From the NCBI GenBank assembly GCA_039802205.1, contig JBDRWD010000012.1, positions 1-54,110 of the forward strand: a DNA stretch of 54,110 bases, in the 5' to 3' direction. Of this stretch, positions 4,219 through 34,763 are shown one piece after another (position 1 is the stretch's first letter; each line of letters begins with the position of its first letter). Position numbers and translations under genes: made by a program. The notes beneath the pieces were generated by a model, which saw nothing but the letters and a program-made list of their open reading frames with translations, was not told the DNA's origin and searched no databases. Source of the stretch: a candidate division WOR-3 bacterium. GTDB taxonomy: Bacteria; Hydrothermota; Tepidihabitantia; SM23-42; JAOAFX01.

Positions 4219-5346
4219 TTAAATCAAATTCAGAAAATAAGCTTTCAGATAATCACTTTCCGGGAAATTCAATAAAATCGGATGGTCTTTTGCCTGTTGA
4301 CCACAGTGTCGAATTACAAAATTTCTCCGCGCATCCCTTGCTGCATCGCGCAGCATGAATAAAAATTCTTCATGAGAGATGTGATAAGAACAGGAAGAGG
4401 TGAATAGAAGCCCACCTTCGTTCAGCAATTTCATCGCCATCAGATTTATTTCTTTATACCCACGCAGGGCGTCTGATTTCTGTTTTTTTGATTTGGTGAA
4501 AGATGGCGGATCAAGGATGATGGTGTCAAATTTTTTACCTCGATTATAGAAGTCTCTTAAAATTTCGAATACATCTGCACAAATAAACTCACATTCAAGA
4601 TTATTTAACTGGGCATTCCTTTGTGCCAGGGCAATCGCCCTTTCTGAAGAATCAACACCCAGCACCTTGCCCTTTCGGGCAGCGTAAAGTGTAAAACCAC
4701 CGGTATAACAGAAGCAATCAAGTATTGCACCAAAAGCCCATTCTCCAATCTTTTTTCGGTTTTCGCGCTGGTCAAAGAAAAAGCCTGTTTTCTGTCCGTT
4801 CACAATGTCCACAAGGAATCTTATTCCATCCTGTTCTATTTCTATTAACTCCGGTATTTCGCCGTAGATCAGCCGGTCTGCAATTTCCAGCCCTTCAAGC
4901 CGCCGGAGGTTTTCGTCGGATTTCTCAAAAATTCCCGAGGGATTAAATAACTCCTTCAACACCTCATACACCATCTCCTTCTGCCTCTCCATCCCCAGAC
5001 AGTTTATCATTACCACCAGATAATCACCATATTTATCAATGATCAAACCGGGCAGCCCATCGCTCTCACTGTAAACCAGACGAAAACTCGCACCCAATCC
5101 CGCACGGCGTTTAAATGCCTCTTTTATCCTTTGCTCCAGAAGGTTCTTTGAAAACGCCTCTTCTTTGTCTGAGAAGAGACGCACGCTTATCAATGAATGA
5201 GGATTGTAAAATCCGCTTCCAATCACCTTCTTTCTTTCTTCTACCTTTACCACCTCTCCCGGTGAAGGATTTTCCGTTTTTAATATCTCATTAGAGAATA
5301 TCCAAGGATGGTTAAAATGCCTTCGGCGAACGATTACCTTTTTCAC
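4219..5346 (-). CDS. RlmI/RlmK-type class I SAM-dependent rRNA methyltransferase
   Basis: 375 residues. The N-terminal PUA domain (residues 1-75) is followed by a Rossmann-fold methyltransferase with the SAM-binding loop LDCFCYTGGFTLYAA (near 210) and the catalytic-region motif ILDPPSFTKSK (near 277). This matches the YccW/RlmI family, which methylates C5 of 23S rRNA cytidines; the exact target base here is unknown. The start overlaps the end of the bat-operon TPR/SH3 gene by 4 bp (ATGA), so it is the last gene of that operon although its function is unrelated. Confidence 0.9.
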   Translation of the reverse strand: MKKVIVRRRHFNHPWIFSNEILKTENPSPGEVVKVEERKKVIGSGFYNPHSLISVRLFSDKEEAFSKNLLEQRIKEAFKRRAGLGASFRLVYSESDGLPGLIIDKYGDYLVVMINCLGMERQKEMVYEVLKELFNPSGIFEKSDENLRRLEGLEIADRLIYGEIPELIEIEQDGIRFLVDIVNGQKTGFFFDQRENRKKIGEWAFGAILDCFCYTGGFTLYAARKGKVLGVDSSERAIALAQRNAQLNNLECEFICADVFEILRDFYNRGKKFDTIILDPPSFTKSKKQKSDALRGYKEINLMAMKLLNEGGLLFTSSCSYHISHEEFLFMLRDAARDARRNFVIRHCGQQAKDHPILLNFPESDYLKAYFLNLI

Positions 5347-6053
5347 TCAAAAATCCTTTCCACGCCCTCTTTTTTTACCCAACCGCCGATACCCCCGGGC
5401 AACTGGATGAGGTAGTAGCCGTTACGCTCTTCACGAATCCGTGCCTCAGCACCATCATGGACAGCCAGAATTTCTTTGTATTCCGCACCTGGACCACTGA
5501 AAGCCTTTAATTCCGGAACAATCACCACCGCCACTCGGGCATTCTTTTCTGCTTCCCACAATGCCCAGGTAATTATAAAATAGCCGAAAAACAGCAAACC
5601 TAAAAAACTCAAATAGAGCAAAAATTTTTGACGCCGGATTAAAAAGAAGGATAGAAAAACGGATGCAAAAAAGAACGCCAGCGCCGACAACCAGGCACTC
5701 TCACGGGCCGAAAAATAATGGAAAAGTCGATCTAAAAATTGTACCAAGGGATTGGTTATAGCAAGTGTTCGATCAGGTCGGAAATTTCTTATAAAATTAA
5801 GGTTAAAGATAACATCTTCATCCCGAGGACAGAGAAAATATGCACGCCGGTATTGAATTAATGCCTTACCGAGGTTGGCATTTTTAAAATAGGCATTACC
5901 GAGATTATAGTAGATGTCTTTATCTTCGCACACCTTCAGCGCATTTTCGTAATATTGGATTGCCTGTGCATAATCACCTGCACAATAAAATTTATTGCCA
6001 GTGTTGTATAACTCCACTGCCTCGGCGAGGGTGGCAAAAATTATTAAAATCAT
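5343..6053 (-). CDS. BatE-like TPR and SH3-domain membrane protein
   Basis: 236 residues: an N-terminal hydrophobic stretch (1-12) that may be a signal or anchor, TPR repeats (about 13-85), two transmembrane helices (about 117-160), and a C-terminal bacterial SH3-like domain (about 170-236; KAFSGPGAEYKEILAVHDG, then GGWVKKEGVERI). This order is typical of BatE of the Bacteroides aerotolerance operon. It overlaps batD by 4 bp (ATGA) and the methyltransferase by 4 bp, so all are translated together. Likely scaffolds the Bat complex at the inner membrane; that role is inferred from position. Confidence 0.85.
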   Translation of the reverse strand: MILIIFATLAEAVELYNTGNKFYCAGDYAQAIQYYENALKVCEDKDIYYNLGNAYFKNANLGKALIQYRRAYFLCPRDEDVIFNLNFIRNFRPDRTLAITNPLVQFLDRLFHYFSARESAWLSALAFFFASVFLSFFLIRRQKFLLYLSFLGLLFFGYFIITWALWEAEKNARVAVVIVPELKAFSGPGAEYKEILAVHDGAEARIREERNGYYLIQLPGGIGGWVKKEGVERIFE

Positions 6054-7834
6054 AACCGATCCATCAGCTCTTTCGTTCTTTTATAAAGCTCCTCCATGGG
6101 TAAATCTTCGTCTGAAATCGGCGCATAGGCAATCAATTCGCACTTCCTGATTATTGAAAATAATTCATCGACGAATTTAGGTTCAATGCCTTTGTTTAAC
6201 AACTCTTGTTTTAATTGTTCGGTTGTCAGCACACCAGTATCAAGGTTATAGCGGTCGCCGAGATAATTGATTATCGCCCGTGATAACGCGCTATAGAAAT
6301 TTTTTGCATCATTCTTTTTCAAATAGTCCCTCACTTCCTGGAAGCGTTTTTTGAATAATTTACCCGACATAAATCGCCGTGCATAGGCGCGGTCCTGGGA
6401 TAATCGGACCTGATGCCGTTGATAAAGAAAGGCGCCGACCAGAAGCAGAATTGACATCAGATATAAAAGAAATGAGAGGTCTTTACTACTTATTAGATCG
6501 GTCTTAAGCACCACCTTATCCGGCTTAATATACCGTATATCACTTCCAAGAATTTTCACTCCTCCCGCATCGGTAACTATTTGACCGGCAACGATGCCGG
6601 TGGCGATAAATTTGCGTTTTTCGCTTTTTAACACCTCATAACTTTTAGTCTGTGGATTGAAATAGGAGACTGTAAACTCGGGGATGAGATATTCGCCGTT
6701 CGCTTGGGGAATAAGGGGAAAGCGAAATTCTTTGGTTCCTTTGATGATACCCCCGGATTTATCAATATTCAACTTAATCTCTGGTTCAAGTATCTTGAGA
6801 TTGGAAACGGCTGGAAGAAGTGGTTTTTCTATCAACTTAATATTACCGGTGCCGCTAATTTTAACACTGAGATTCACTGGTTCTCCTCCGGTTGAGGTAT
6901 CACGGTCAATAGAGGTGTGCATTGTAAACTTACCCACACCCCCTGTGAAGTCGGGCAATTGTTCTTCCGGGAGTGGACGGACAGTTATGGTAAGCGCTTT
7001 GGCCACAACCGAAATATTCTGGGCGGTACCAAAGAAATCAAAGAAATCTCGGGGTGGCTTTATCACGGTTACTATCAGTTCCATGGGTTCAATAGTAAGA
7101 TTGCCCGAGGTGAGCGGAAAAAGGGCAACAGTTTTTAGTAATGCCACATAGTAGGTCTTTCCTTCATATGTTTTTTTCTGATACTTCAATCGATCTGCGT
7201 CATATATAACCTCTGACCAGAAGCCATTAAAAGACGGAAGTTTTGTAAATCGGAGGTCTTCAATATCATATTGCGTATAAAGATAAAATTCAACATTTAA
7301 TTGCTCTCCCTGATATACTTCTTTCTTGCTGGGGATAGCGATAAGCATAATTCCATCCGTGGTAGCAGCGCGTGGGGTAGAAGGTGTCGGAACAGGAGGA
7401 GTCTGGGTCGCACCTTTTACCACATCAATCTCGATTGATTGTGTCTCATAACTCCGACCCTGATAATCCAACTTGCATGGTCCGATTGTTAACCTCCCAA
7501 GTTTTTTGGGAGTGAGGGTATAAATGAAAGTAATAGTAGTCCGCTGGGTCATACGGCCATTTATGAAACTGATACTTGTGGATTGGGATGAAGAACGCCC
7601 CAGAACATTAAAATCGGGTAAATCGGGTAATTTAGGCGCCGGAACCCCGGTGATATCCTCACCGCTCACCGAAACATTCAAAGTAAATGTCTCACCCAGC
7701 CCAACCGTTGTTCGATCGACTGTCGCGGTAAAGTTGAGTTCACCTGCCCCTAATAACAAAGGCAGGAAAATAGTATACCACTTCATTTGAGAAACGACAT
7801 AAAATTTCCGAAATGCCCGGACAAATTTCCGCAT
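6050..7834 (-). CDS. batD: BatD family membrane protein
   Basis: 594 residues. After a signal segment (WYTIFLPLLLGAGEL) comes a long extracytoplasmic region of beta-rich repeats beginning TATVDRTTVGLGETFTLNVSV, which is the hallmark opening of BatD, then a single transmembrane helix near residue 450 (LSFLLYLMSILLLVGAFLY) and a C-terminal cytoplasmic helical domain. The start is ATG 7834: batC stops at TGA 7838-7836 and the ATG follows one base later, with AAAAGGA upstream. A TTG at 7852 would overlap batC further. An internal Met at 7786 is also possible but has no ribosome site. Probably a structural part of the Bat membrane assembly. Confidence 0.9.
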   Translation of the reverse strand: MRKFVRAFRKFYVVSQMKWYTIFLPLLLGAGELNFTATVDRTTVGLGETFTLNVSVSGEDITGVPAPKLPDLPDFNVLGRSSSQSTSISFINGRMTQRTTITFIYTLTPKKLGRLTIGPCKLDYQGRSYETQSIEIDVVKGATQTPPVPTPSTPRAATTDGIMLIAIPSKKEVYQGEQLNVEFYLYTQYDIEDLRFTKLPSFNGFWSEVIYDADRLKYQKKTYEGKTYYVALLKTVALFPLTSGNLTIEPMELIVTVIKPPRDFFDFFGTAQNISVVAKALTITVRPLPEEQLPDFTGGVGKFTMHTSIDRDTSTGGEPVNLSVKISGTGNIKLIEKPLLPAVSNLKILEPEIKLNIDKSGGIIKGTKEFRFPLIPQANGEYLIPEFTVSYFNPQTKSYEVLKSEKRKFIATGIVAGQIVTDAGGVKILGSDIRYIKPDKVVLKTDLISSKDLSFLLYLMSILLLVGAFLYQRHQVRLSQDRAYARRFMSGKLFKKRFQEVRDYLKKNDAKNFYSALSRAIINYLGDRYNLDTGVLTTEQLKQELLNKGIEPKFVDELFSIIRKCELIAYAPISDEDLPMEELYKRTKELMDRL

Positions 7835-7835
7835 A

Positions 7836-8480
7836 TCACCAATCCTTTTCAACCTTTTCTAATTGGGGCTTGGGCTTTTCCTTTTGCCGTTCTTCTTTCT
7901 CTTTATTTTTCAGCAACTCCAGAATTCTATTGGCATCTGCCTGAGACATCTCGGGTTTTGAACTCTGGGGTGAAGGTTGAGGTTGTCGTTGAGGTGGTTC
8001 CTGTGTCTGCTGTTTCGTAGTATCACTCTGGGGTTGATTCTTCAATTGCTCCTTCAATTTCAAACAAAACTCTAAATTCTCTTTTGCCTTACGGTCCTTA
8101 TTATTCAAAAGAAGGGCGGTTTTATAGGCATTTATCGCTCCTTCCAGATCACCCTGTTTGAATTTACAATTACCAATATTGTAGATTGAATTCGCTTGAA
8201 ATTTTTTATCTTTAGTAAGTAGACCGATTTCAAATTCTTTTATTGCCTCTGGATACTTCTCCATTTTATATAAAGCCCGCCCCATATTGTAGTGAATTTT
8301 GATATTGTCGGGTTCAAGAACCTGCGCCTGTTCATAGGTCTTTAAGGCATCTTCATATTTCCCTTTCCGCATAAAATCATTTCCCCGGCGCATCAATGAA
8401 CCGACATCGGCATAAAGCGGAAGGAAAAATATTGGGGCGATAAAAGTGATGACAAATTTGAAGGTTGATTTTATATCCAC
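7836..8480 (-). CDS. batC: BatC, exported TPR protein
   Basis: 214 residues. Signal peptide (about 1-24, cleavage near LYADVG), three TPR units (about 28-135; GKYEDALKTYEQAQVLEPDN, KYPEAIKEFEIGL, DLEGAINAYKTALLLN), then a low-complexity Gln/Pro/Ser linker and a charged Lys/Glu tail. This is the BatC layout: a periplasmic TPR domain with a charged tail. The start overlaps the end of batB by 10 bp and the stop is one base from the batD start, so expression is tightly coupled. Confidence 0.88.
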   Translation of the reverse strand: MDIKSTFKFVITFIAPIFFLPLYADVGSLMRRGNDFMRKGKYEDALKTYEQAQVLEPDNIKIHYNMGRALYKMEKYPEAIKEFEIGLLTKDKKFQANSIYNIGNCKFKQGDLEGAINAYKTALLLNNKDRKAKENLEFCLKLKEQLKNQPQSDTTKQQTQEPPQRQPQPSPQSSKPEMSQADANRILELLKNKEKEERQKEKPKPQLEKVEKDW

Positions 8481-9469
8481 TTTCCTCTCCGGTCACTCAA
8501 GAAAACACTGAGAAAAAACAGACCAAAGGCGATTGCCAGAAAGTATTGATAACGCTCCTCAAACTGAACATACTCACCACCCCCAAATTCCTTTTTCTTA
8601 ATTGATTCCAATTCCTCAATCAACTTTTCAATGTAGGGACCTTCGGTCCTAAAAAATCTTCCATTTGCCATGCGCGCAATCAAAAGCAATAATCTATCTG
8701 CGAGTCGCGTCATAACAATATTCCCATCGCGGTCCTTTTTATAAACAACACTCCCGCCTGATGTCTCTGGAATGGGTGCCCCTTCAGGTGTGCCGATGCC
8801 CACGGTAAACACCCGCACCCCCTGGTCAATCGCCTTTTCCAATGCTGGCAGCGGATCACCTTCCAGATTATCACCGTCGGTGAAAAGGATGAGTGCCTTG
8901 TGGGTTTCTTCTTTAGGATTGAATAATGAAGAAGAAACCTCGATGGCACGGGCAATATTTGTCCCAGGTCGTGGTATCATATTCGGTTCGATGATATCCA
9001 GAAATAGTTTAGCGGCATCGATATCCGTTGTCAATGGGCACATCACATAGCAGTCTCCCGCAAAGGCGGTAATACCTACCTGATGGGTTCCGAGATTATT
9101 AAGTAGATATGCAATGTCCTGTTTCGCCCTCTCTAATCTCGAAGGTTTGACATCCTGGGCATACATGCTTTTGGAGGCATCAAGGGCAATAACGATATCA
9201 ATACCCTTCCCTTTATAAATCTGTAATTTTTCACCCCATTTAGGACGGGCAAGACTGATAATCAGAAATAATACTGCACCCAAAAAGAGCAACGATTTTA
9301 TCCAGAACATTCGCCCGTTGAACATCTCGATAAGAAATGGAATCAGATTATCATCAGCAAATTTTTTAAGCGCGCGCTTTTTCTGAAGATAGAGTAATAT
9401 AAATCCCAGCCACATGACTGGAAGCACGAGGAGGAGATAAAGGTATTTTGGTTCTGCCCACTTGATCAC
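8471..9469 (-). CDS. batB: BatB, VWA-domain membrane protein
   Basis: 332 residues: two N-terminal transmembrane helices (about 8-28 and 53-73), a von Willebrand A domain (about 85-285) with the MIDAS motif DASKSM and later TDGDN, and a C-terminal helix (YFLAIAFGLFFLSVFL). GTG 9469 is chosen as start: GAGGAGG lies five bases upstream and the GTG overlaps the batA stop as GTGA. An ATG 18 bases earlier would place that Shine-Dalgarno inside the gene. Together with BatA it presumably forms a metal-dependent VWA scaffold in the inner membrane. Confidence 0.9.
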   Translation of the reverse strand: MIKWAEPKYLYLLLVLPVMWLGFILLYLQKKRALKKFADDNLIPFLIEMFNGRMFWIKSLLFLGAVLFLIISLARPKWGEKLQIYKGKGIDIVIALDASKSMYAQDVKPSRLERAKQDIAYLLNNLGTHQVGITAFAGDCYVMCPLTTDIDAAKLFLDIIEPNMIPRPGTNIARAIEVSSSLFNPKEETHKALILFTDGDNLEGDPLPALEKAIDQGVRVFTVGIGTPEGAPIPETSGGSVVYKKDRDGNIVMTRLADRLLLLIARMANGRFFRTEGPYIEKLIEELESIKKKEFGGGEYVQFEERYQYFLAIAFGLFFLSVFLSDRRGKWI

Positions 9470-10443
9470 GGTAGCCTCCTCAACCATGTCACTGAGAGAA
9501 TAAAATTAGCGAAACAAAAGATGATCGCCGGAAGCATGAAAGATTGTGCCTTCTCTGAATAGACTGTGTATCTTGATACTTTAAAAGTGGTGGGTTCCAG
9601 TTTATCAATTTCATCATAAATAGTTTTCAGCGCCTGGGCATCGGTCGCAAGAAACGCCCTCCCACCGGTGAGGTTAGCAATCTCTTCTAAGGTTTTCATA
9701 TCCAAATCCACTTCTTCACGTACATAAATCTTGCCGTATATTGGATGGCGCACCGGTATCGGAACCGGTCCCTTGGAGCCAACACCAATACAATAAACTT
9801 TGATATTATGGGCTTGGGCAAGTCTGGCGGCCGTGAGCGGATCAACTTCTCCAGCATTATTAAGTCCATCGGTCAAGAGTATAATTATTTTCTCTTTCGC
9901 TTTGGAGTCCTTCAATCTTGCCACCGCGGTTGCTAACCCCATTCCAATCGCGGTTCCGTCCTGGATGATACCGAAATCAATCCGATCCAATAGGTCGAGT
10001 AGGATCTTATGGTCAATGGTAAGGGGACATTGAGTCAATGCCGTCACCGCAAATATCACCAGGCCAATCCGGTCGCCTGGTCTTTTTGAGATAAACTCCT
10101 TGGCGCGTTCTTTTGCCACATATAAGCGATTCTTGGGACTGAAATCTTCTGCCTGCATCGTGCCGGAGATATCAAGACAGAGCATGATATCCACACCTCG
10201 GGTCTCGGTCTCTTCATACACCCGACCCTGTTGAGGCCGGGCAAGACCCAAAACCATTAGGATAAGGCATCCGGCATTAAGAATAAGAAAAAGATACTTG
10301 AAAAAGTAGTTCCGGTGTGGATAAATTTTGAAAAAGTGGGTATCGGAAAATTTAATCGCCGCGGTGCGTTTTTTCAGCTCCCAGTATATCAATCCTGCCA
10401 CCGGTATGAGTAATAGAAAGAATAATGGTTGGGCAAATCTCAT
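9466..10443 (-). CDS. batA: BatA, VWA-domain membrane protein
   Basis: 325 residues with the same plan as BatB: N-terminal membrane helices (about 5-23 and 49-68), a VWA domain (about 85-280) with MIDAS residues DISGTM and LTDGLNN, and a C-terminal membrane helix (MLPAIIFCFANFILS). Paralogue of BatB; BatA is normally the first of the pair, as here. It starts with an ATGA overlap with the upstream gene and ends with a GTGA overlap with batB. Bat proteins are linked to oxidative-stress tolerance in Bacteroides; their molecular activity is not settled. Confidence 0.92.
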   Translation of the reverse strand: MRFAQPLFFLLLIPVAGLIYWELKKRTAAIKFSDTHFFKIYPHRNYFFKYLFLILNAGCLILMVLGLARPQQGRVYEETETRGVDIMLCLDISGTMQAEDFSPKNRLYVAKERAKEFISKRPGDRIGLVIFAVTALTQCPLTIDHKILLDLLDRIDFGIIQDGTAIGMGLATAVARLKDSKAKEKIIILLTDGLNNAGEVDPLTAARLAQAHNIKVYCIGVGSKGPVPIPVRHPIYGKIYVREEVDLDMKTLEEIANLTGGRAFLATDAQALKTIYDEIDKLEPTTFKVSRYTVYSEKAQSFMLPAIIFCFANFILSVTWLRRLP

Positions 10444-11315
10444 TTTTCTAACTCCGTTTCTTCCGGGATGGTTTTTAGAATCAACTCCCGACTCTTTTTC
10501 AGTATCTCATCCGTCGCTTCTGATGAAGGAATAAATTTTGCATACTTAACCATATCTGCAAACTGGAATACACGTTGGAATTCATCACGCATGGGGACCT
10601 TTAGTAACTTCATACTTTGAATTATCTCGGTGGTTGTCTGTTCAATCGCAGGAAAATGGAATCTTTCCTCTAAGTATCGCTTAATGATCTCAGTAAGTGT
10701 ATAATAAAATTTCTTTATTAAACCTTTGTTTAACAAATCCTCTTTTACCAATCCATCAAGCGCATTCAAAGCCCGCTCCCAACATGGAATTTTTCTTTCC
10801 GCTACAGACTTTTGTTGTCTCCACCTTCGGTAAAAGCGTAGTCCGAGAAAGGTCGATAGCCCGGCAGCGACAACAATCAACAAAATTATCACTGGCAGGT
10901 AACTGGGAAATTCTATCATTTCTTTGATGTCATTAATATCCTTCATCTCTTGAGGTAAAACGCTAGCCACTTTGATTTCTACTGAATCGGTTTGCACGGT
11001 ATCAATTTTGGTTCCGTCCTTAAAGATGAACTTCAAAGGCGGAAACTTTAAATCGCCGGTGGCGAAGGCAGCCGCCTTTATAAGATAATTATGTTTTGCA
11101 AATCCTTTCTCCTGAACAATCTTGTGTTGCTGATCAATTATTGTGAATGGTCCAATGGAATCAACGAATGGCTCTGAAATATTCTTACCAGTGGGGAAGG
11201 TGACTTCAACAATTATCTCAAAAGGATCACCGATGGTCAGTTTTCGGTTGATATACTCTCGAGCAAGATTTGCTCTTGCTTCAATCTTATATAACAGAAA
11301 AATCAATAGTATCAT
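10440..11315 (-). CDS. Bat-operon membrane protein with short BatD-like ectodomain
   Basis: 291 residues: N-terminal signal-like helix (ILLIFLLYKIEARA), a beta-rich domain starting REYINRKLTIGDPFEIIVEV that resembles one BatD repeat, a transmembrane helix near 140-162 (YLPVIILLIVVAAGLSTFLG), and a cytoplasmic helical domain with a TEIIKRYLEERF segment like the C-terminal part of BatD. It occupies the place of the BatD/DUF4381-like small protein found between DUF58 and batA in many operons. Starts 8 bp after the DUF58 stop and overlaps batA by 4 bp. I do not assign a symbol. Confidence 0.8.
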   Translation of the reverse strand: MILLIFLLYKIEARANLAREYINRKLTIGDPFEIIVEVTFPTGKNISEPFVDSIGPFTIIDQQHKIVQEKGFAKHNYLIKAAAFATGDLKFPPLKFIFKDGTKIDTVQTDSVEIKVASVLPQEMKDINDIKEMIEFPSYLPVIILLIVVAAGLSTFLGLRFYRRWRQQKSVAERKIPCWERALNALDGLVKEDLLNKGLIKKFYYTLTEIIKRYLEERFHFPAIEQTTTEIIQSMKLLKVPMRDEFQRVFQFADMVKYAKFIPSSEATDEILKKSRELILKTIPEETELEK

Positions 11316-11323
11316 ATCGCCAT

Positions 11324-12217
11324 TTAGCGAAATCTGCGCGCCCGTTCTTCAAAGAATTTGTGGAGTTTGGGCGTAAAATCTTCAGCAGTTTTTAAATCGA
11401 TATAATCAACACCCAACGATTTAAACAATCGCTCCTGGGCGATCGCCTTCATTTCACAATAACGCCGGTATTGGTCAAGCAAACTCTTATCATCGGTATT
11501 CACCATCATAATCTCGCCGGTTTCTAAGTCCTCAAATTCCACGATACCCAATTTGGGAATATCTTCTTCCCGAGGATCCGTGATTCTTATCACCACTAAG
11601 TCATGTTTTTTTGCAGCTACCCCAAAAGGTATCCGAATCTTTTCGGGTTCAAATCCTGAACCAAGAAAATCGCTTATGAAAAAGACAATCGCCCGATGTC
11701 TTAAGATATGCATCAAAAATTCAACCGCTTGAACGGGATCGGTACCTTTGTGTTCAGGCTGGAAATAAAGGATATCCCGGATCAACCGTAAAACATGGAA
11801 ACGCCCTTTTTTTGGTGGAACATATTTCTCTACACGATCGGTGAAGAAAAGCAGTCCCACTTTGTCATTGTTGCGCACCGCAGAAAATGCTAATGTCGCT
11901 GCCACCATCGCTGCCTGTTCAATCTTCAATTGATTTTTGGTCCCGAAATGGCTTGAACCAGATGCATCAACGCATAATATCACTGTCAGTTCCCTTTCTT
12001 CCACATATTTTTTCACATACGGTCGTCCCATCCTTGCCGTGACCTTCCAGTCAATGGCACGAATATCATCGCCTGGAAGATACTCGCGCACATCCACAAA
12101 CTCTATTCCGGTGCCTTTAAATGATGATTTATATTCGCCAGCAAAAGTTGTATTCACCAACTTCTTGGTGCGAATTTCAATCGCACGAATTTTTTTTACA
12201 AATTCTGGAGCAAGCAT
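11324..12217 (-). CDS. DUF58 domain protein of the MoxR/Bat system
   Basis: 297 residues, soluble. Contains the DUF58 signature GTGIEFVDVREYLPGDDIRAIDWKV region (about 36-58) followed by a VWA-like fold with DASGS (about 86-90) as the MIDAS-type loop. DUF58 proteins are encoded beside moxR in most bacteria and are thought to be handled by the MoxR chaperone. The ATG follows the moxR stop with no gap (TAA then ATG), indicating translational coupling. Confidence 0.92.
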   Translation of the reverse strand: MLAPEFVKKIRAIEIRTKKLVNTTFAGEYKSSFKGTGIEFVDVREYLPGDDIRAIDWKVTARMGRPYVKKYVEERELTVILCVDASGSSHFGTKNQLKIEQAAMVAATLAFSAVRNNDKVGLLFFTDRVEKYVPPKKGRFHVLRLIRDILYFQPEHKGTDPVQAVEFLMHILRHRAIVFFISDFLGSGFEPEKIRIPFGVAAKKHDLVVIRITDPREEDIPKLGIVEFEDLETGEIMMVNTDDKSLLDQYRRYCEMKAIAQERLFKSLGVDYIDLKTAEDFTPKLHKFFEERARRFR

Positions 12218-13219
12218 TTACGGGACTTCTACTCCGGCAAGAATTTTTTGAATAATTTCATCAGTCGTTATTTCTTCAGCTTCTGCCTCGTAGGTGAGGA
12301 TGATGCGGTGTCTCAGGACATCCGGTGCGAGCTCCTTGATATCTTCGGGAATTACAAAACCACGCCGCTTCAAAAAAGCCATCGCCCGGGCGGTGGTGGT
12401 AAGATATATTGATGCTCGTGGTGATGCACCGTATCGGATTAGACCTTTCAACTCATTGAGATTATACTTTTCCGGCTCTCGGGTTGCAAAAACCAGATCC
12501 ACGATGTAATCCTTTATCTTCTTATCCACATAGATTTTTTTACACAATTCTCGGGCTTTGATGATCGTGGCGGGATCGACCACCGGCTTTATCTCCGGCT
12601 CACCGCTCACCGCAATCCGTTCAATGATCTCTTTCTCCTCTTCCTTGGTGGGATAAGTAATCTTCACCTTCAGCAAAAACCGATCAACCTGGGCTTCGGG
12701 TAAAGGATAGGTACCCTCTTGTTCGATAGGATTCTGGGTTGCCAATACCAGAAATGGGTCATCAAGTTTGAAGGTCTCTTCGCCGATCGTCACCTGCCTT
12801 TCCTGCATCGCCTCCAAGAGTGCGCTTTGAACCTTGGGTGGTGTGCGGTTGATTTCATCTGCCAGAATAATATTGGCAAAAATCGGACCCTTGCTCACCG
12901 TAAATTCACCGGTGCGTTGGTTATAGATCAATGTACCGGTGATATCTGCCGGCAACAAATCTGGAGTGAATTGGATGCGCTGGAATTTTGCCTTTATTGC
13001 CCGCGCCAGGGTGCGCACGGCATAAGTCTTTGCCAGCCCCGGCACCCCTTCTATCAAGACATGACCGTTCGCCAGTAGACCGATTAACAACCGGTTTATC
13101 AAATAATTCTGCCCTACAATCGCCTTGCTAATCTCCGCTATCAGTGCCTGCACAAACAGACTTTCTCGCTCAATCTCCTCATTTATCTGTTTAATATCAT
13201 CTTTAAGCTCCATATTCAT
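12218..13219 (-). CDS. MoxR-family AAA+ ATPase
   Basis: 333 residues. Walker A loop GVPGLAKT (about 57-64), Walker B ILADEINR (about 119-126), sensor 1 ATQNP (about 160-164) and a C-terminal lid. MoxR ATPases act as chaperones that insert metal cofactors or help assemble VWA-domain proteins, here BatA, BatB and the DUF58 protein. First gene of the nine-gene operon; AAGGGGG lies three bases before the ATG at 13219. Two in-frame ATGs are present (codons 1 and 3). Confidence 0.95.
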   Translation of the reverse strand: MNMELKDDIKQINEEIERESLFVQALIAEISKAIVGQNYLINRLLIGLLANGHVLIEGVPGLAKTYAVRTLARAIKAKFQRIQFTPDLLPADITGTLIYNQRTGEFTVSKGPIFANIILADEINRTPPKVQSALLEAMQERQVTIGEETFKLDDPFLVLATQNPIEQEGTYPLPEAQVDRFLLKVKITYPTKEEEKEIIERIAVSGEPEIKPVVDPATIIKARELCKKIYVDKKIKDYIVDLVFATREPEKYNLNELKGLIRYGASPRASIYLTTTARAMAFLKRRGFVIPEDIKELAPDVLRHRIILTYEAEAEEITTDEIIQKILAGVEVP

Positions 13220-13361: not shown

Positions 13362-13389
13362 TCAGATATCTTCAAGGTTTATTTAAAAT

Positions 13390-13422
13390 AAAAAGGCGGA
13401 TGCATCATACACCCGCCTTTTT
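13390..13422 (-). terminator. Rho-independent terminator (may act on both strands)
   Basis: Ten-base inverted repeat AAAAAGGCGG / CCGCCTTTTT separated by 13 bases. It lies 18 bp past the stop of the minus-strand thioredoxin-fold gene and provides the T-run in either direction. It separates that gene from the moxR operon. Confidence 0.8.
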
Positions 13423-13440
13423 AATAAATTGGTTCGGCAC

Positions 13441-14502
13441 CTATCTTATCACAATCTTTCCTGATTTTTCTTTATCAGATGATATGAACCTGTAGAAATA
13501 AACCCCGGAATTCACTCTTTTACCTGCTTGATCTTTCAGATCCCATTCTATTGTCTCTTTATCGCCTGAGGCATATCCATCTATCTCCAAAATCTTCCTA
13601 CCTGCGACATCAAAGATTGAAATAGAATACACTTCTCCCTTATTGAGGAAGAAGGTGAAGCGAGTATGATTAACACACGGGTTAGGGAAGGAAGCAATTG
13701 GAGTCTGTGTAGGTTTTTGAGAAACCATTTCTTCAACCGGTGTCAAATTTGTTACTTTAATCATGCCTCCCTGCCAGATCTCCTTTGTAGAATCAGGTAG
13801 CAAAAAAGGACTCTGAATCCAGGCAACGATTTCACAGCGGTTTGCATTCCAGCCGGATTGGACGGTAAAATTTCTGCTGACAATTACCGAATCACCAGGG
13901 GCAATCGTTACCGCAGTTCCACCGGTATCCGGTAGATAATCCCTTGCCACATGGTTATGCCATACATCACCATTTGGTCCTGCGTAATATAAGCTATCCT
14001 CAGTTAGAACAAATCGGACATATCCAGTGACCATTGCTGTTGTATCGCTTTTAAATTTTGCATAGACTGTTCCATTCCCGGTTGATTGATTGTAGGTTCC
14101 CCACATTGTGCAGGTGAAAGGAGCAGGTCTGTTCATTCTGGCAACTATTGAGTCTTGCCAGGTGGAATATATCCAGCGACCGCGTTTGGTGCCATCGATC
14201 CAAAGCCACGGAGTTACAAATACCCAAGAACTACCGTACCAATATGGTGCGGGATAAAAGTACATTCTCTGTCTTGCCTCAGCACTGTATAAGGGGAACT
14301 GGTTATCGATATGCATCTCTATTGCGGCAACCCTTCCAGGATAGTTTATTGCAATCTGTGCCAGTGTCCCACTGGCGGTAGCACAGCTGCTTCAGTCTTC
14401 CTGGTAGAGTTCTTCACATACCACAACCCTCTGGGCCGAGAAGCTTAGACCAAAAAGGGTAAGGACTATAAAGAGACTTGAGTGTAAATTTTTTAGCCTC
14501 AT
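13441..14502 (-). CDS. Candidate selenoprotein: exported Omp28-like thioredoxin-fold protein with sorting domain
   Basis: One continuous frame of 353 residues if the TGA at 14394-14392 is read as selenocysteine (residue 37). Promoter (14523-14550) and AAAGGAG five bases before ATG 14502 are strong. Residues 1-23 form a signal peptide (cleavage near SFSA-Q). Then VVVCEELYQED-U37-S-S-C40 aligns with the E-E-x-x-x-x-C-x-x-C active site of Omp28-related thioredoxin-fold proteins, and T97-P98 fits the cis-proline loop. A beta-rich domain follows, and residues about 275-353 are a type-IX-like sorting domain (FPNPCVNHTRF; SGVYFYRF; KIVIR end). A hairpin with a GGA loop starts right after the TGA. 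Without recoding, the ORF would be broken: a 36-residue peptide and an orphan 291-residue fragment. Alternative: a recent Cys-to-stop mutation. Confidence 0.72.
14356..14386 (-). promoter_or_regulatory. Candidate bacterial SECIS element
   Basis: Minus-strand RNA hairpin beginning five bases after the in-frame TGA. Upper stem GCCAGTG / CACTGGC closes a GGA loop; lower stem CTGT / ACAG, with bulged bases on the 5' side. An alternative pairing is CTGTGC / GCACAG plus CAGTG / CACTG with a 6-nt bulge beginning with U. The loop starts 22 nt after the TGA, within the spacing known for bacterial SECIS elements, and has a G in the first loop positions. The fold was made by eye. Confidence 0.6.
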
Positions 14503-14522
14503 CTCAACTCCTTTCTATTTCT

Positions 14523-14550
14523 ATTATAATCACATTTTCCAAAAAGTCAA
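14523..14550 (-). promoter_or_regulatory. Promoter of the candidate selenoprotein gene
   Basis: Minus strand TTGACT (14550-14545), 16-bp spacer, TATAAT (14528-14523). Transcription should start near 14516, leaving a short leader with GAAAGGAG. The MITE target duplication begins only 3 bp upstream of the -35. Confidence 0.85.
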
Positions 14551-22010: not shown

Positions 22011-23174
22011 TTATTTAAGAAACACTACCCTTTTCGTTCTGTTATCAGGGGTTTTTATGAAATAGACACCGGCATTGAGAGTTCTATCCGCCTGCCAGGT
22101 TCCGGGAATTTTTATTTCCGCAATCTTTTTCCCGGTAATGTCAAAAATCTCGGCAGAACAACTTTTCCCAGTTATTTTCAAAGATTTAGTAAACGGATTG
22201 GGATAGACTGATATCTCGGATTTTGTATCACTGGCATTTTTCTGTTCTTTTACTCCGACCCCACCATATCTGACTTCAACTGTATCCATTGTCGGATGAC
22301 CTTTAATTGAATCGCCGAAACAATAATGATAATTCCACATAGTAGTATCATTTCTTAGATACCGCTGGAAGAATGCAGTCATATGCCTGCGGGCAATTCT
22401 CTGCTGTTCGGCACGTGTTATGGTTGCGGTCCCACCATTTTCCCAAGAGTATGAATAATCCATAAAGTATCCGTGATTAGCGCCATAGATTACCGCAAAT
22501 GTACCTGGTGCTGGTGCATTCTGCCAGTATGCAGAGCGAATATCATTCCAGGGTGCAATATTATCAACTGAACCCGCAATAATCATCTTTGGTGTTATCA
22601 GGTGCTCGGAATGGGTTGCGGGTGTAGTCTGGGGACTCGCTAAAGAAACTACCGCTTTAAGTGTATCATATAGCCTGAATGTATCTGCTGCAAGAAGGGC
22701 AAGCCCGCCGCCCATACTGTGTCCGGTAAATCCCCATTTGAATCGGGCGAGTTTGTTGTAAAAAATATCGGTTGGAACTGTATCCCTGCTCGCAGTCCAG
22801 CGCGCTGCATCCACCATTGAATGCGCACGGGTATAGTGTTCAGGTGTGGGAAATGGATTTGATATTGTCGGTAAAACCACAATATATCCCCAGGATGCTA
22901 AATGTTGGGCATAACTGTAATAACGGTCAATACCCATCTGGAATCCATGGCCAAACACGATAATCGGACAGGGAACAGCATCAGGATTTACCTGATTTCC
23001 TGAAGAAGGATAATAAATCCGGGAGTTATTCATCGTTTCATAAACACCCGGGATATTTTCAGTCCGGTAAGATACGGTAGGAAATGGTCCCGTTGTATCA
23101 TAATCAGGATATTGTGCTCCAGTCAATTTCACAAGGATAGTAAGCAATACCAGTGGAATCAAGATATAACGCAT
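22011..23174 (-). CDS. Secreted alpha/beta-hydrolase with C-terminal sorting domain
   Basis: 387 residues. Signal peptide (about 1-20, ILIPLVLLTILVKLTGAQ). Alpha/beta-hydrolase domain with the oxyanion segment VFGHGFQMG (about 74-82), nucleophile elbow GHSMGGG (Ser about 153), and a late Asp and His (GANHGYF). It resembles dienelactone-hydrolase/PAF-acetylhydrolase (chlorophyllase-like) enzymes; the substrate is unknown. Residues about 315-387 are a sorting domain (VYPNPFTKSLKI, AGVYFIKT, RVVFLK end). AGGAGG precedes ATG 23174, 8 bp after the apt stop. Confidence 0.87.
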   Translation of the reverse strand: MRYILIPLVLLTILVKLTGAQYPDYDTTGPFPTVSYRTENIPGVYETMNNSRIYYPSSGNQVNPDAVPCPIIVFGHGFQMGIDRYYSYAQHLASWGYIVVLPTISNPFPTPEHYTRAHSMVDAARWTASRDTVPTDIFYNKLARFKWGFTGHSMGGGLALLAADTFRLYDTLKAVVSLASPQTTPATHSEHLITPKMIIAGSVDNIAPWNDIRSAYWQNAPAPGTFAVIYGANHGYFMDYSYSWENGGTATITRAEQQRIARRHMTAFFQRYLRNDTTMWNYHYCFGDSIKGHPTMDTVEVRYGGVGVKEQKNASDTKSEISVYPNPFTKSLKITGKSCSAEIFDITGKKIAEIKIPGTWQADRTLNAGVYFIKTPDNRTKRVVFLK

Positions 23175-23182
23175 AATACCTC

Positions 23183-23695
23183 CTAATACTCAACGAGTGA
23201 AAAGACTTCGTAATCTTTTAATTTCTCTCTACCATTTAAATAAGTTAGATTCGCAATAAAGGCACAGGCGACTACCTTTCCACCGAGCATCTCCACGAGT
23301 TTACATGCCGCAAGCATTGTGCCACCGGTTGCAAGGACATCATCAAATAACAAGACCCTCTCTCCTTTTTCAATCCCATCTTTATGAATCTCGATGACAT
23401 TCTTGCCGTATTCTAATTCATATTCCATCCTGACTGTCTCGGCTGGCAATTTTCCAAGTTTGCGTACCGGCACAAGTCCACAGCCAAGATTATAGGCAAT
23501 TGCACCGCCAAAGATATAACCCCGTGCCTCAATTGAAACGACCTTTTGAATCTTTGCATTTTTATATTTTTCAACAATGGTATCTATTGAATATTTAAAT
23601 GCCTCGGGATTTTTCAAAATCGTTGTTATATCACGAAACATGACCCCTTTTTGGGGAAAATCAGGAATATCCCGAATAAATTTCTTTAAGTCCAT
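23183..23695 (-). CDS. apt: Adenine phosphoribosyltransferase
   Basis: 170 residues, the usual length. Converts adenine and PRPP to AMP in purine salvage. Signature elements: the N-terminal IPDFPQKGVMFRDITT, EARGYIFG, and the PRPP-binding loop VLLFDDVLATGGT (about 118-130). AAGGAGG lies four bases before the ATG. The secreted hydrolase follows 8 bp later on the same transcript. Confidence 0.96.
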   Translation of the reverse strand: MDLKKFIRDIPDFPQKGVMFRDITTILKNPEAFKYSIDTIVEKYKNAKIQKVVSIEARGYIFGGAIAYNLGCGLVPVRKLGKLPAETVRMEYELEYGKNVIEIHKDGIEKGERVLLFDDVLATGGTMLAACKLVEMLGGKVVACAFIANLTYLNGREKLKDYEVFSLVEY

Positions 23696-23713
23696 TAAAC
23701 CTCCTTGCGAGTG

Positions 23714-23741
23714 ATTATATTTATAAAAAGATACTTGTCAA
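23714..23741 (-). promoter_or_regulatory. apt promoter
   Basis: Minus strand TTGACA (23741-23736), 16 bp, TATAAT (23719-23714), near consensus. Short leader with AAGGAGG. Confidence 0.85.
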
Positions 23742-23744
23742 TTT

Positions 23745-25340
23745 TTATCGTATTAAGGTAAATTTTCCGTTAATGCCTTCTCCTTTAACGAAATATACAC
23801 CTTCTGAAAATAGGGAAAGGTCTAAATCTATCTTATGATTACCTGATTTCAAATTCCCTTCATTAATTCTTTTTACAATTTGACCTGCGGAATTGTAAAT
23901 ATTGAAGGTGATTGTTCTGGATTCTGTTAAATTAAATTCCAGCGAGATATTTTTTGTAGCAGGATTTGGTTTAATTGAAAACAGAATTTTCTTATGCATT
24001 CTGTAATATTCGTCCAGTCCAACATTCTCCATTACACCGACATAGGTATCTTGATTCCCGTTCCTGGTATCGGTCCAGATTGGTATTGGATTTCCTTTTG
24101 ATGCTGCTGCCAGACCATTATATTCACCGATCAAACCAGCCCGCTGGTCAACAAGGGGCTTATTTGGATCATAAGGTTCAAAATCTGCAAACGACCCTGC
24201 CCTTAAATCAAAAGAGACATTGGTTACACGGACATTGGGAAGCCAGGTGGTTCCGCCATCAGTAGATTGTGCAAGATATACATCACAGAGGATATTATTC
24301 GGGTCATTCCTTGAATCGTAAAAAATCACTGAAATGCAGCCGGTGCGGTCAACCGTGAGCCAGGGATGGAATTGATCAATGTTATTGCCCACAGGGTCAT
24401 CATTTATTCTTACCCTTGGGCTCCAGGTATTTCCACCATCCGTGGAACGGGTGAAGAACATATCCGGATAACCATCGGTTCCATTATCCATATAAGCGAT
24501 GTAAATATAACCACGATACGGACCATCGGTAATATCCACATCCATTGCCGGATAGGAAAAAGTAAGTATTGTTCCCTTTACATAGCGATTCATTGAAGAA
24601 ATGCTCTGGACGGTTTTATCGGTTCCAAATGATATACCACCGTTTGTAGAGCGATCAAACTTTATTGAGTTATATGTGCACCAGGCGACATAAACCTCAC
24701 CATTAGGACCGACTGCGGGCACTGGCCATTGAAGGCTCCCCTGGGTATCACTGATTTGAATCGGAGTCGACCAGTTATAACCCTGATTTGTGGAGCGTGT
24801 GAAATATATCGCAGGTGTGGAAAAGTTAAGAAATCTTGCCCAGGCAACATAAAGATTGCCACGATATGGACTGTTCGTTCTATCACAGGCGATCAATTCC
24901 TTGTCTTCAAATACATTCTGGACATTGTTCACCACTGTCCGTGGCGGACTCCAGGTAATTCCTTTATCCGTTGACTGAAATAGAAAAAATCCATTAGGCT
25001 GGGAAGTTGAATTAAAAGATAGCACGATTGCATAAAAGTTGCCATCAGCATCCACGGTCATCCCCGGGTCTGAATCCCAGTTATAAGTCGGCTCAACAAA
25101 GAGGGTTTCGGCAATCCAGGTTCTGCCGCCATCCAGGGATGCCGCATGGCCAACCTGGCGGTACCCGACGCGAAAATCACGCCAGTCCGCGACAAGATTT
25201 AATGTATCAGTAGGATTTATTACAATCTGCTGCTCATTCTGAATCTGAGTTGTATTATCAGTATTTACCTTGATATTGAGAAATCCCTGACCAAATAAAA
25301 GACTGACAATGAATACAAAAAAAGCAATATTTTTAAACAT
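23745..25340 (-). CDS. Secreted BNR/sialidase-like propeller protein with sorting domain
   Basis: 531 residues. Signal peptide 1-17 (cleavage near LLFGQG). At least five Asp-box/BNR motifs of the form S-x-D-x-G-x-T-W (SLDGGRTW, STDKGITW, STNQGYNW, STDGGNTW, STDGGTTW) indicate a six-bladed beta-propeller of the sialidase/BNR superfamily. The Arg triad of true sialidases is not evident, so enzymatic activity is doubtful. Residues about 455-531 form the C-terminal sorting domain (IKPNPATKNISLEF, EGVYFVKG, FTLIR end). GAGGAGG precedes the ATG. Confidence 0.87.
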   Translation of the reverse strand: MFKNIAFFVFIVSLLFGQGFLNIKVNTDNTTQIQNEQQIVINPTDTLNLVADWRDFRVGYRQVGHAASLDGGRTWIAETLFVEPTYNWDSDPGMTVDADGNFYAIVLSFNSTSQPNGFFLFQSTDKGITWSPPRTVVNNVQNVFEDKELIACDRTNSPYRGNLYVAWARFLNFSTPAIYFTRSTNQGYNWSTPIQISDTQGSLQWPVPAVGPNGEVYVAWCTYNSIKFDRSTNGGISFGTDKTVQSISSMNRYVKGTILTFSYPAMDVDITDGPYRGYIYIAYMDNGTDGYPDMFFTRSTDGGNTWSPRVRINDDPVGNNIDQFHPWLTVDRTGCISVIFYDSRNDPNNILCDVYLAQSTDGGTTWLPNVRVTNVSFDLRAGSFADFEPYDPNKPLVDQRAGLIGEYNGLAAASKGNPIPIWTDTRNGNQDTYVGVMENVGLDEYYRMHKKILFSIKPNPATKNISLEFNLTESRTITFNIYNSAGQIVKRINEGNLKSGNHKIDLDLSLFSEGVYFVKGEGINGKFTLIR

Positions 25341-25405
25341 AAAGACCTCCTCAATTATTTATCTTCTTTACCATTTTTTTCTAAATTAGATCAAAAAAGT
25401 CAAAT

Positions 25406-27196
25406 TTATTCCATTATTACAATCTTTTCCTCTATGCTGCCTTCTGGGTATTCCATCCTTAATATATATAAGCCGGGTGGAACTTTCTTTCCATTTTGGT
25501 CATCTCCATTCCAGTAGATATTGAACCTCCCAGCGCCGATTACCCGGAATAAATCTTTTACCAAGCGTCCGGTATTATCAAAGACCTTTAGGCTGGTAAT
25601 CCCTCTATCGGTGTTGAAACTGATGGCAATTCCTTTATTTGAAGGATTGGGGTAGATCGATAATGCAATCCTGCTTTTCTCTTTTCTTGGTCTTTCCTCA
25701 AAACCAACGACCGGTAATATTGAGAAAGGTCGGGGTGTTAGGGCAACTGCTGTATCATTGGAAGTAGCAGCGGTAAACTTAATGTAGCAATTATTTGAAC
25801 CCTGGATATTGGAAGGTATTCGCCATTGATACCGGCAGTTATTTTTGAGATTACTGGCAATCAATGTCCAGGGACCATTGGGACCGGTTGTGGACAACTC
25901 CAGTTTTATAGTGGCGATACCCACAGGTACACCACAGGTCCATTTTATAAACTGAACCGAATTGCGATAGAATTTTTCACCGCCTCGGGGGAATACAGGA
26001 AAGATGAAGAGGTTTTGCGAAACCGAAGATTCTTTATAAAATCTGGGGCAATTTACACTCCCCGACCTGCCCACGAGGGCGATGTCCGGATAACCATTAT
26101 GGTCGGCATCGGCACCTACCCTGAATGCACTGACCGTGCCCGGACCGGGAATATAAAAAGTTGTATCATGAATCCAATTACCTTGGCCATCCCCCAGCCA
26201 GATTGTTATGATACTATCACCAAAGGCGCATAGGTCAATGAAGCCATCAATATTCATATCGCACAGTTGGGTCAAACGATAACGACCGGCCGTCGGTAAA
26301 TTTCCAGAAAATTGACTCCAAGTATTATTACCCTGCCATCTCCATACCTCAACACCACCATTTGTATTACAAAAAGCAAAATCAAGGTCGCCATCATTAT
26401 CAACATCGCCCAAAGACGGACCGGGACGACCGTTGCTACCACCGGGTGGTAGATTACCATCAGCAAGTATAAAACCACCAGCACCATTGTTAAGGTAGAT
26501 GCTTCCATATTGATGGGCAGCGCAGAAATCCACATATCCATCGTTGTTCACATCACCGAAGAGAAAATCATTGGTGGAATTACCGCCTAAAAAACCAAAA
26601 CACTGATGCCAGATTCCATCAAGATGGTTGACAAATATATGAACACCATCGTTGCCACCGAATGAATTTGCACCTAAGTCTAAATCACCGTCATTATCTA
26701 TATCAGCAAAATCAGTACAGAACATTCCCCAGTTCACAGGGAATATTGTATCACCGATAGATATTCCATCATCCCAAGGAATCCAATTTTGACCCGTGCC
26801 ATCACCCAGCGCCACCTCCAGTATAGAATCGCCAAAATCATTGTTTGATTCATTATGGTGCATACCATACCCAATGTCTAAAAATCCATCGTTATTTACA
26901 TCACCTATTGCAATACCACCATAGCCGAAATCACCATTTTGATACACACTCCATATCCCTTGACCATTGCCAAACCATACCATAACGCCGTGTTCCTGGG
27001 TATTGACATAAGGCGAACCATGGTCACCGATAGAGAGGATGTCAATATTTCCATCATTATTTATATCAACCATCTCAATCTCGGTTCTGCCTGTTTCCAT
27101 TTGTGGCACATTTAGACCAACGGAGGATTCAACATAACTGAGGGCAAAAGCAATGGAATATACGAACAATATTGTTAACATATGGTGCTTTCGCAT
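25406..27196 (-). CDS. Secreted FG-GAP/VCBS repeat protein with sorting domain
   Basis: 596 residues. Signal peptide about 1-19. Residues 30-390 hold about eight FG-GAP/VCBS blades with calcium-binding motifs such as DINNDGNIDI, DVNNDGFLDIG, DIDNDGDLDLG, DVNNDGYVDF and DADHNGYPDIA, so an integrin-alpha-like beta-propeller. A fibronectin/Ig-like region (about 410-500) and a sorting domain (IYPNPSNKGIAISF, PGLYILRM, IVIME end) follow. Function at the cell surface is unknown. AAAGGAG lies five bases before ATG 27196. Confidence 0.87.
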   Translation of the reverse strand: MRKHHMLTILFVYSIAFALSYVESSVGLNVPQMETGRTEIEMVDINNDGNIDILSIGDHGSPYVNTQEHGVMVWFGNGQGIWSVYQNGDFGYGGIAIGDVNNDGFLDIGYGMHHNESNNDFGDSILEVALGDGTGQNWIPWDDGISIGDTIFPVNWGMFCTDFADIDNDGDLDLGANSFGGNDGVHIFVNHLDGIWHQCFGFLGGNSTNDFLFGDVNNDGYVDFCAAHQYGSIYLNNGAGGFILADGNLPPGGSNGRPGPSLGDVDNDGDLDFAFCNTNGGVEVWRWQGNNTWSQFSGNLPTAGRYRLTQLCDMNIDGFIDLCAFGDSIITIWLGDGQGNWIHDTTFYIPGPGTVSAFRVGADADHNGYPDIALVGRSGSVNCPRFYKESSVSQNLFIFPVFPRGGEKFYRNSVQFIKWTCGVPVGIATIKLELSTTGPNGPWTLIASNLKNNCRYQWRIPSNIQGSNNCYIKFTAATSNDTAVALTPRPFSILPVVGFEERPRKEKSRIALSIYPNPSNKGIAISFNTDRGITSLKVFDNTGRLVKDLFRVIGAGRFNIYWNGDDQNGKKVPPGLYILRMEYPEGSIEEKIVIME

Positions 27197-33827: not shown

Positions 33828-34763
33828 CTATTTTTCTTTCAATCTAATCAGGGCAGTCTTTAAGATTTCAAAAATGAGCTCATCATAACTCAAACCGATT
33901 GCCCTTGCCTCCAGAGGAAGGTTAGACTCTGGCAGCAATCCCGGAATGGTGTTCACCTCCAGGACATAAGGATTATACTCTGTATCGAAAACAAAATCCA
34001 CCCGAGAAAACCCGTATGCCCCAATCGCCTGATGAGCCATCAATGCCAGACTCTGGGTCAGTTTATATTTGTCTTCCGGAATTTGCGCGGGAATAATATA
34101 TTCTGTCATCCCTTTGGTATATTTGGATTTATAGTCATAAAATTTTCGCTTTTTGGGAACGATTTCAAGGACCGGAAGGGGGACTTCATTTAAAATACCA
34201 CAGGTGGCAATCTTACCTCCCAAATATCTTTCAAAGAAGATATCTGGATGTTTCCGGGTAACAAATTTTATCTTTTTAATGAGTTCTTCCCGGGTCTCCA
34301 CGATGAATACCCCCACACTCGAACCTTCAGCACGAGGTTTGATGACCACTGGCAACCCAAGTTTTTCAATAACCTTATCAACATCAATATCCTTCTCATA
34401 AAAATATTCGGGCGTGGGGATTCCGCGCGATTGGAAAATATATTTAGAAATGATCTTATCCATTCCGATTGCGGAACCAATGATCCCGGAGCCGGTATAA
34501 GGAATACCTAAAAACTCCAAAATTCCCTGAACAGTTCCATCCTCCCCTGGCTTACCGTGGAGGGCAATAAAAGCAATATCAATATCCCGTAATTTTTTGA
34601 TAAAATCCCGATCAACATCTATCCCTTTTACATTAAATCCCTGTTTTTTTAATGACTCAATCACTGTGGTTCCCGAACCAATGGAGATTTCCCGTTCCGA
34701 GGACCAACCACCATATAATACTCCAATTGTTTTTTTCCGAAGAAATCCACGTTCGTCTTTCAT
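33828..34763 (-). CDS. ddl: D-alanine--D-alanine ligase
   Basis: 311 residues. ATP-grasp ligase that makes the D-Ala-D-Ala dipeptide of peptidoglycan precursors. Key segments: VLYGGWSSEREISIGSG (about 15-31), the LHGKPGEDGTVQG loop (about 68-80), Lys in PVVIKPRAEGSSVGV (about 137-151), and EVNTIPGLLPESNLP (about 270-284) with the Mg2+-binding Glu and Asn. ATG 34763 lies 6 nt after the -10, leaderless. Confidence 0.96.
   Translation of the reverse strand: MKDERGFLRKKTIGVLYGGWSSEREISIGSGTTVIESLKKQGFNVKGIDVDRDFIKKLRDIDIAFIALHGKPGEDGTVQGILEFLGIPYTGSGIIGSAIGMDKIISKYIFQSRGIPTPEYFYEKDIDVDKVIEKLGLPVVIKPRAEGSSVGVFIVETREELIKKIKFVTRKHPDIFFERYLGGKIATCGILNEVPLPVLEIVPKKRKFYDYKSKYTKGMTEYIIPAQIPEDKYKLTQSLALMAHQAIGAYGFSRVDFVFDTEYNPYVLEVNTIPGLLPESNLPLEARAIGLSYDELIFEILKTALIRLKEK

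Follow-up and report, generated by a model that had tools for sequence, protein, structure and literature searches.

A minus-strand gene in the analysed window, a stretch of 54,110 nucleotides from a candidate division WOR-3 bacterium, very likely encodes an exported thiol-disulfide enzyme with selenocysteine (Sec) as residue 37. Computation strongly supported the Sec coding, the SECIS element and the fold of this protein; how it is exported, where it resides and what it catalyses are predicted from its homology to HBP35 and from its C-terminal sorting domain. The gene and its signals, all on the minus strand, were as follows.

14523..14550, minus strand: promoter-like site TTGACT-16-TATAAT with 11/12 matches (consensus match only).
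14508..14514, minus strand: Shine-Dalgarno sequence AAAGGAG, 5 nt before the ATG (from the sequence).
13441..14502, minus strand: selenoprotein gene, its product 353 aa long with UGA-encoded Sec as residue 37, recognized from its frame and from orthologues with the same TGA.
14437..14502, minus strand: probable signal peptide, residues 1-22 (basic start, hydrophobic stretch and FSAQ; model helix 2-19).
14392..14394, minus strand: in-frame TGA (Sec codon) at residue 37, the first position of UxxC (from the sequence; homologue column U or C).
14360..14376, minus strand: bSECIS hairpin GCCAGUG-GGA-CACUGGC, 7 bp, GGA triloop, -9.8 kcal/mol (recoding and covariation).
14371, minus strand: SECIS position +21, third codon position (AGT Ser), which covaries with 14365 (covariation).
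14365, minus strand: SECIS position +27, third codon position (ACA Thr), the partner of 14371 (covariation).
13738..14433, minus strand: Omp28/HBP35-like thioredoxin-fold domain, residues 24-255 (Pfam Omp28 2.7e-13; 5y1a Z 24.2).
13444..13701, minus strand: type IX (T9SS type A) C-terminal sorting domain, residues 268-353 (TIGR04183; PorU CTD 6za2 Z 12.9).
13389..13423, minus strand: intrinsic-terminator-like hairpin of 16 pairs (consensus match only).

The reading frame ran from the ATG at 14502 to a TAG stop at 13441 and contained exactly one in-frame TGA, giving the translated redox motif EELYQED-U-SSC. A first-pass annotation of the window had described a frame open save for this TGA, with the same motif and with a promoter and a Shine-Dalgarno sequence upstream, and the sequence confirmed the frame, the motif and AAAGGAG 5 nt before the ATG, and showed a promoter-like site at 14550-14523. 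No operon link was found for the gene, which has promoter-like and terminator-like sites of its own by consensus match. Its neighbours, MoxR/DUF58/VWA/BatD genes downstream and flavodoxin, BacA and UbiA genes upstream, had no evident functional tie to it. The downstream genes at 4219-13219 (MoxR, DUF58, two VWA proteins, TPR proteins and BatD) make up a Bat aerotolerance-type cluster, which directly follows the selenoprotein gene but lies beyond the terminator-like site.

The survey of homologues covered 65 class genomes. With few exceptions, strong matches among them held exactly one TGA, and the nearest named relatives were candidate division WOR-3 / Candidatus Stahlbacteria assemblies. In the aligned column of Sec37, 122 sequences had U, 38 had C and one had V, with three further sequences unaligned there. 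The first-pass annotation had proposed asking whether this column holds Cys or TGA and not random codons, and apart from the single Val it does. The non-redundant tree comprised 139 sequences (107 U and 32 C in this column), and all 77 members of the window's clade had U (77/77; support 99). Ten U/C changes were counted over the whole tree, seven of them forced by well-supported branches, all outside the window's clade. The clade was found in about 45 genomes (independent assemblies), often in multiple copies, with four copies in the genome of the window itself. The resolving residue Cys40 was invariant in 67/67 clade members. The top-scoring full-length non-Sec relative (L156), from another class of the phylum, had Cys at the Sec position. 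The search found no phage homologue.

These data bear on whether the gene is simply broken. Standard ORF calling gave just a 291-aa frame at 14316-13441 that leaves out the active site, as would be seen if the TGA were a real stop or a misread TGT or TGC, with the downstream frame a remnant. A pseudogene or sequencing error of this kind has virtually no probability and was rejected for the family by the conservation of the TGA: the same codon is shared by the whole clade across its independent assemblies, the frame is open on both sides, invariant residues occur along the whole length and the SECIS is under selection. Since the same TGA is kept in >70 homologues and the hairpin behind it is selected at synonymous sites, the in-frame TGA is far beyond chance. 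Because standard calling begins downstream of the active site, the clade is likely to be widely misannotated.

The source genome (2.65 Mb, 96% complete) has the machinery for Sec insertion. The first-pass annotation had suggested looking there for selA, selB, selC (tRNA-Sec) and selD, and all four were present. The profile search found tRNA-Sec at 79 bits (cut-off 47), and ARAGORN called the same tRNA as tRNA-SeC with anticodon tca. This tRNA gene adjoins selB (354 bits, cut-off 242) and selA (551 bits, above its cut-off) on contig C45. The selD gene scored 323 bits and carries an in-frame TGA at CAG-U; with its UGA near the N-terminus, it is a second selenoprotein gene of the genome (L017, G000:C52:1221-2129, minus strand).

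If TGA were recoded throughout the genome, for instance to Trp or Gly, it would also be read through in the selenoprotein frame, but we regard such recoding as extremely improbable and rejected it. Elsewhere in the window TGA works as an ordinary stop, ending 19 of the 42 genes examined. Within the long frames of the window, the only convincing redox-motif TGA was that of the selenoprotein gene; the residue is Cys in homologues and the Sec machinery is complete. A second redox-motif TGA candidate, at 33841, was discarded, being near further stops and just upstream of a start. Sec insertion at residue 37 is supported as firmly as a prediction from sequence can be.

The clade and the Sec genes also occurred together across the class. 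Among the 65 genomes, 41 combined the clade with an over-cut-off SelB, four had the clade only, seven had SelB only and 13 had neither (Fisher p = 6e-6, which overstates independence because the genomes are related). Two of the four genomes with the gene and no over-cut-off SelB were just 53% and 66% complete. Within genus g23 (G042, G043, G044), two species had SelB, tRNA-Sec and the clade, and G044 (98% complete) had none of the three. Under stricter filters, tRNA-Sec was above its cut-off in 42/65 genomes. Omp28-type selenoprotein genes were close to selB or selC in several class genomes (L176 in G019, L177 in G037 and L178 in G011), and two such genes flank selB in G019. Four of seven single-contig genomes had an Omp28-type selenoprotein gene within 15 kb of selB, versus 0.26 expected, with the distance threshold chosen post hoc. 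In the source genome, these genes and selB are on different contigs. Two genomes, G025 and G015, apparently have two full-length selB genes each, and G025 also has two tRNA-Sec genes; this doubling could be a real duplication or a binning artefact.

In the bacterial SECIS model, the loop opens with two G residues and the spacing after the UGA is 16-37 nt (PMC13188914). The window hairpin agrees with this model, having a GGA loop that starts 22 nt after the TGA, and the loop distance of 22 nt given in the first-pass annotation matches the position of GCCAGTG-GGA-CACTGGC. Its statement that the hairpin starts 5 nt after the TGA was incorrect: the apical arms start 15 nt after it (14376), and the stem at ~5 nt is part of an alternative free-RNA fold, not of the apical SECIS hairpin. 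In free folding, the 50-nt window RNA favoured a different, longer structure (-17.8 kcal/mol), with pair probabilities of 0.19-0.32 for the consensus hairpin; these rose to >=0.93 when the fold excluded the UGA and the few nucleotides behind it, as on the ribosome. Because free-RNA folding alone disfavours the consensus hairpin, the case for the SECIS was built on synonymous recoding and covariation.

Hairpin stability in each gene was compared with that in 200 synonymous recodings (p<=0.05). The hairpin was stabler than the recodings in 70/78 clade genes and 14/19 other Sec homologues, and in 1/35 Cys homologues. Across the clade, positions +21 and +27 formed C-G in 35 cases, T-A in 34 and T-G in six, with C-A as the lone mismatch. 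When the partner was shifted by 1-3 nt, paired cells fell from 80% to 20-39%. On a tree made without the SECIS codons, phylogenetically independent +21/+27 pairs co-moved in ~5.7 cases versus 0.5; on well-supported branches this test had a median p of 0.06, with just eight pairs available. The hairpin is under RNA-level selection at synonymous sites, and the idea of a SECIS hairpin behind the UGA is upheld by the synonymous recoding and the third-position covariation.

Sec insertion competes with termination at Sec codons generally. The TGA might on that ground act as a regulated stop, which would mostly terminate translation and yield full-length protein only with plentiful selenium. The truncated product would have 36 residues and be mainly signal peptide, which argues against such a role, and we consider a regulated stop improbable.

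The AlphaFold2 model of the protein had a pLDDT of 90.8, with a strand at 27-33, UxxC at 37-40 and a helix at 40-53, so that, in a thioredoxin fold, UxxC sits where the first domain helix begins. The structure closest to the model was HBP35 from Porphyromonas gingivalis (5y1a), at Z 24.2 and 2.7 A across 224 residues; 2axo from Agrobacterium came next (Z 18.9). Pfam Omp28 (PF11551) matched the protein with 50.6 bits (gathering threshold 34.9), and 65/67 clade members matched this model at E<=0.001. The PDB sequence search matched the C-terminal domain alone. In structure, this domain matched domains of PorU (best, Z 12.9), mirolase, NucA and PorZ, and matches to transglutaminase and complement proteins were set aside for their rmsd of 13-20 A. 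The TIGR04183 sorting domain scored 39.6 bits (cut-off 23). The Omp28-like protein with a type-IX-like sorting tail described in the first-pass annotation therefore agrees with the Pfam, TIGR04183 and structural matches. Four further proteins with type IX sorting tails are encoded in the window (22011-27196 and 42218-44878), and tens in the genome.

HBP35 provides the closest functional comparison. It is secreted by the Por/type IX system (PMC3120885) and has a measured thioredoxin activity that the double substitution C48S/C51S abolishes (PMC2907840). In E. coli, a dsbA mutant is complemented by hbp35 on a plasmid (PMC2907840), which would also fit a periplasmic selenoprotein with a DsbA/DsbC-like role in the folding of exported proteins. 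The C-terminal domain would then be a structural, Ig-like one; it does resemble FlgD/Ig-like domains, and FlgD_ig was matched by 13/67 members. However, the T9SS type A sorting model was matched by 63/67 members, the domain is closest in structure to type IX C-terminal domains, and of the type IX components two were searched, SprA and PorU, whose homologues in the genome scored above their cut-offs (316 bits against 200 and 458 bits against 420). We consider this periplasmic role unlikely, though less so than the regulated stop. By analogy with HBP35, a thiol-disulfide selenoenzyme at the cell surface is the most likely identity of the window protein, and the first-pass reading of a surface or periplasmic Omp28-like selenoprotein is supported by the Sec machinery, the Sec/Cys column, the SECIS and the sorting domain.

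In the mechanism that we propose, SelB and Sec-tRNA(UCA) would bind the hairpin just behind the UGA, and the ribosome would place Sec as residue 37, which opens the UxxC motif where the first helix of the thioredoxin domain starts. The signal peptide would take the protein across the inner membrane, and a type IX system recognizing the C-terminal domain would probably move it across the outer membrane. The protein would work on the cell surface or within the periplasm as a thiol-disulfide oxidoreductase in which Sec37 attacks and Cys40 resolves.

The window protein has known relatives. GOS_C, which has a thioredoxin-like fold, was first identified in the Global Ocean Sampling data, where it had 74 Sec sequences (PMC2398784), and is listed with UxxC as NF045500 in a 2026 selenoprotein catalogue (PMC13188914); the NCBIfam name of NF045500 is Omp28-related selenoprotein. 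Like the window protein, members of GOS_C/NF045500 are Omp28-related, with a thioredoxin fold and a UxxC motif with one Sec (PMC2398784, PMC13188914). The window protein scored 45.3 bits against NF045500, whose cut-off is 200, matching just model positions 37-272 of 377, and among the 147 genomes of the phylum none had a match above this cut-off (0/147). Because its score is below the curated cut-off, the window protein is a relative and not a member of NF045500. It was also under the cut-off of NF033782, the Omp28 outer membrane lipoprotein model (48.5 bits, cut-off 150). HBP35 (5y1a) has, like the window protein, a signal peptide, a thioredoxin-like domain, an active motif near the N-terminus and a type IX sorting domain; however, it has CxxC (C48/C51) and binds heme, whereas the window protein has UxxC and shares 16% identity with it in the structural alignment.

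Other relatives occur within the same class. Omp28-like proteins of ~600 aa (L124, L129, L131, L132, L139, L142, L150 and others) have UPYC with Sec or CTYC/CPYC with Cys, and share the domain, the Sec/Cys column and the type IX tail with the window protein. They differ in being longer, in having a choice-of-anchor J-like region and in mixing Sec and Cys forms, which interchange within the class, whereas the window's clade is Sec only. The source genome itself has a Cys form of this ~600-aa relative (L123). A further small family of ~250 aa (L046, L055, L070, L073) has UGFC/UPFC and a SECIS-like hairpin of its own 17 nt after the UGA; its members are possibly lipoproteins.

The first-pass annotation had regarded the group as one not known to be described. 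This holds in part: Omp28-related UxxC selenoproteins are already catalogued, and the window's clade falls outside NF045500. Judged by its sequence, the protein is not categorically new, and represents a Sec-only variant with a type IX tail in an overlooked branch of the Omp28-related UxxC selenoproteins. Our literature search found no paper linking a selenoprotein with Omp28 or with WOR-3 and nothing describing selenium thiol chemistry on the outer surface of the WOR-3 class; for selenoprotein and type IX secretion together, the sole match was unrelated.

With a multi-copy, Sec-only family apparently exported by type IX secretion, the WOR-3 class probably shows selenium thiol chemistry on its outer surface, a view that we hold with less assurance than the enzyme assignment itself. 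The finding adds a well-supported Sec-only clade of predicted exported selenoproteins in a lineage for which we found no selenoprotein literature, gives annotators a basis for building a new model, and would join type IX export to selenium chemistry. It also raises the question of why a costly, easily oxidised residue is kept in several exported paralogues.
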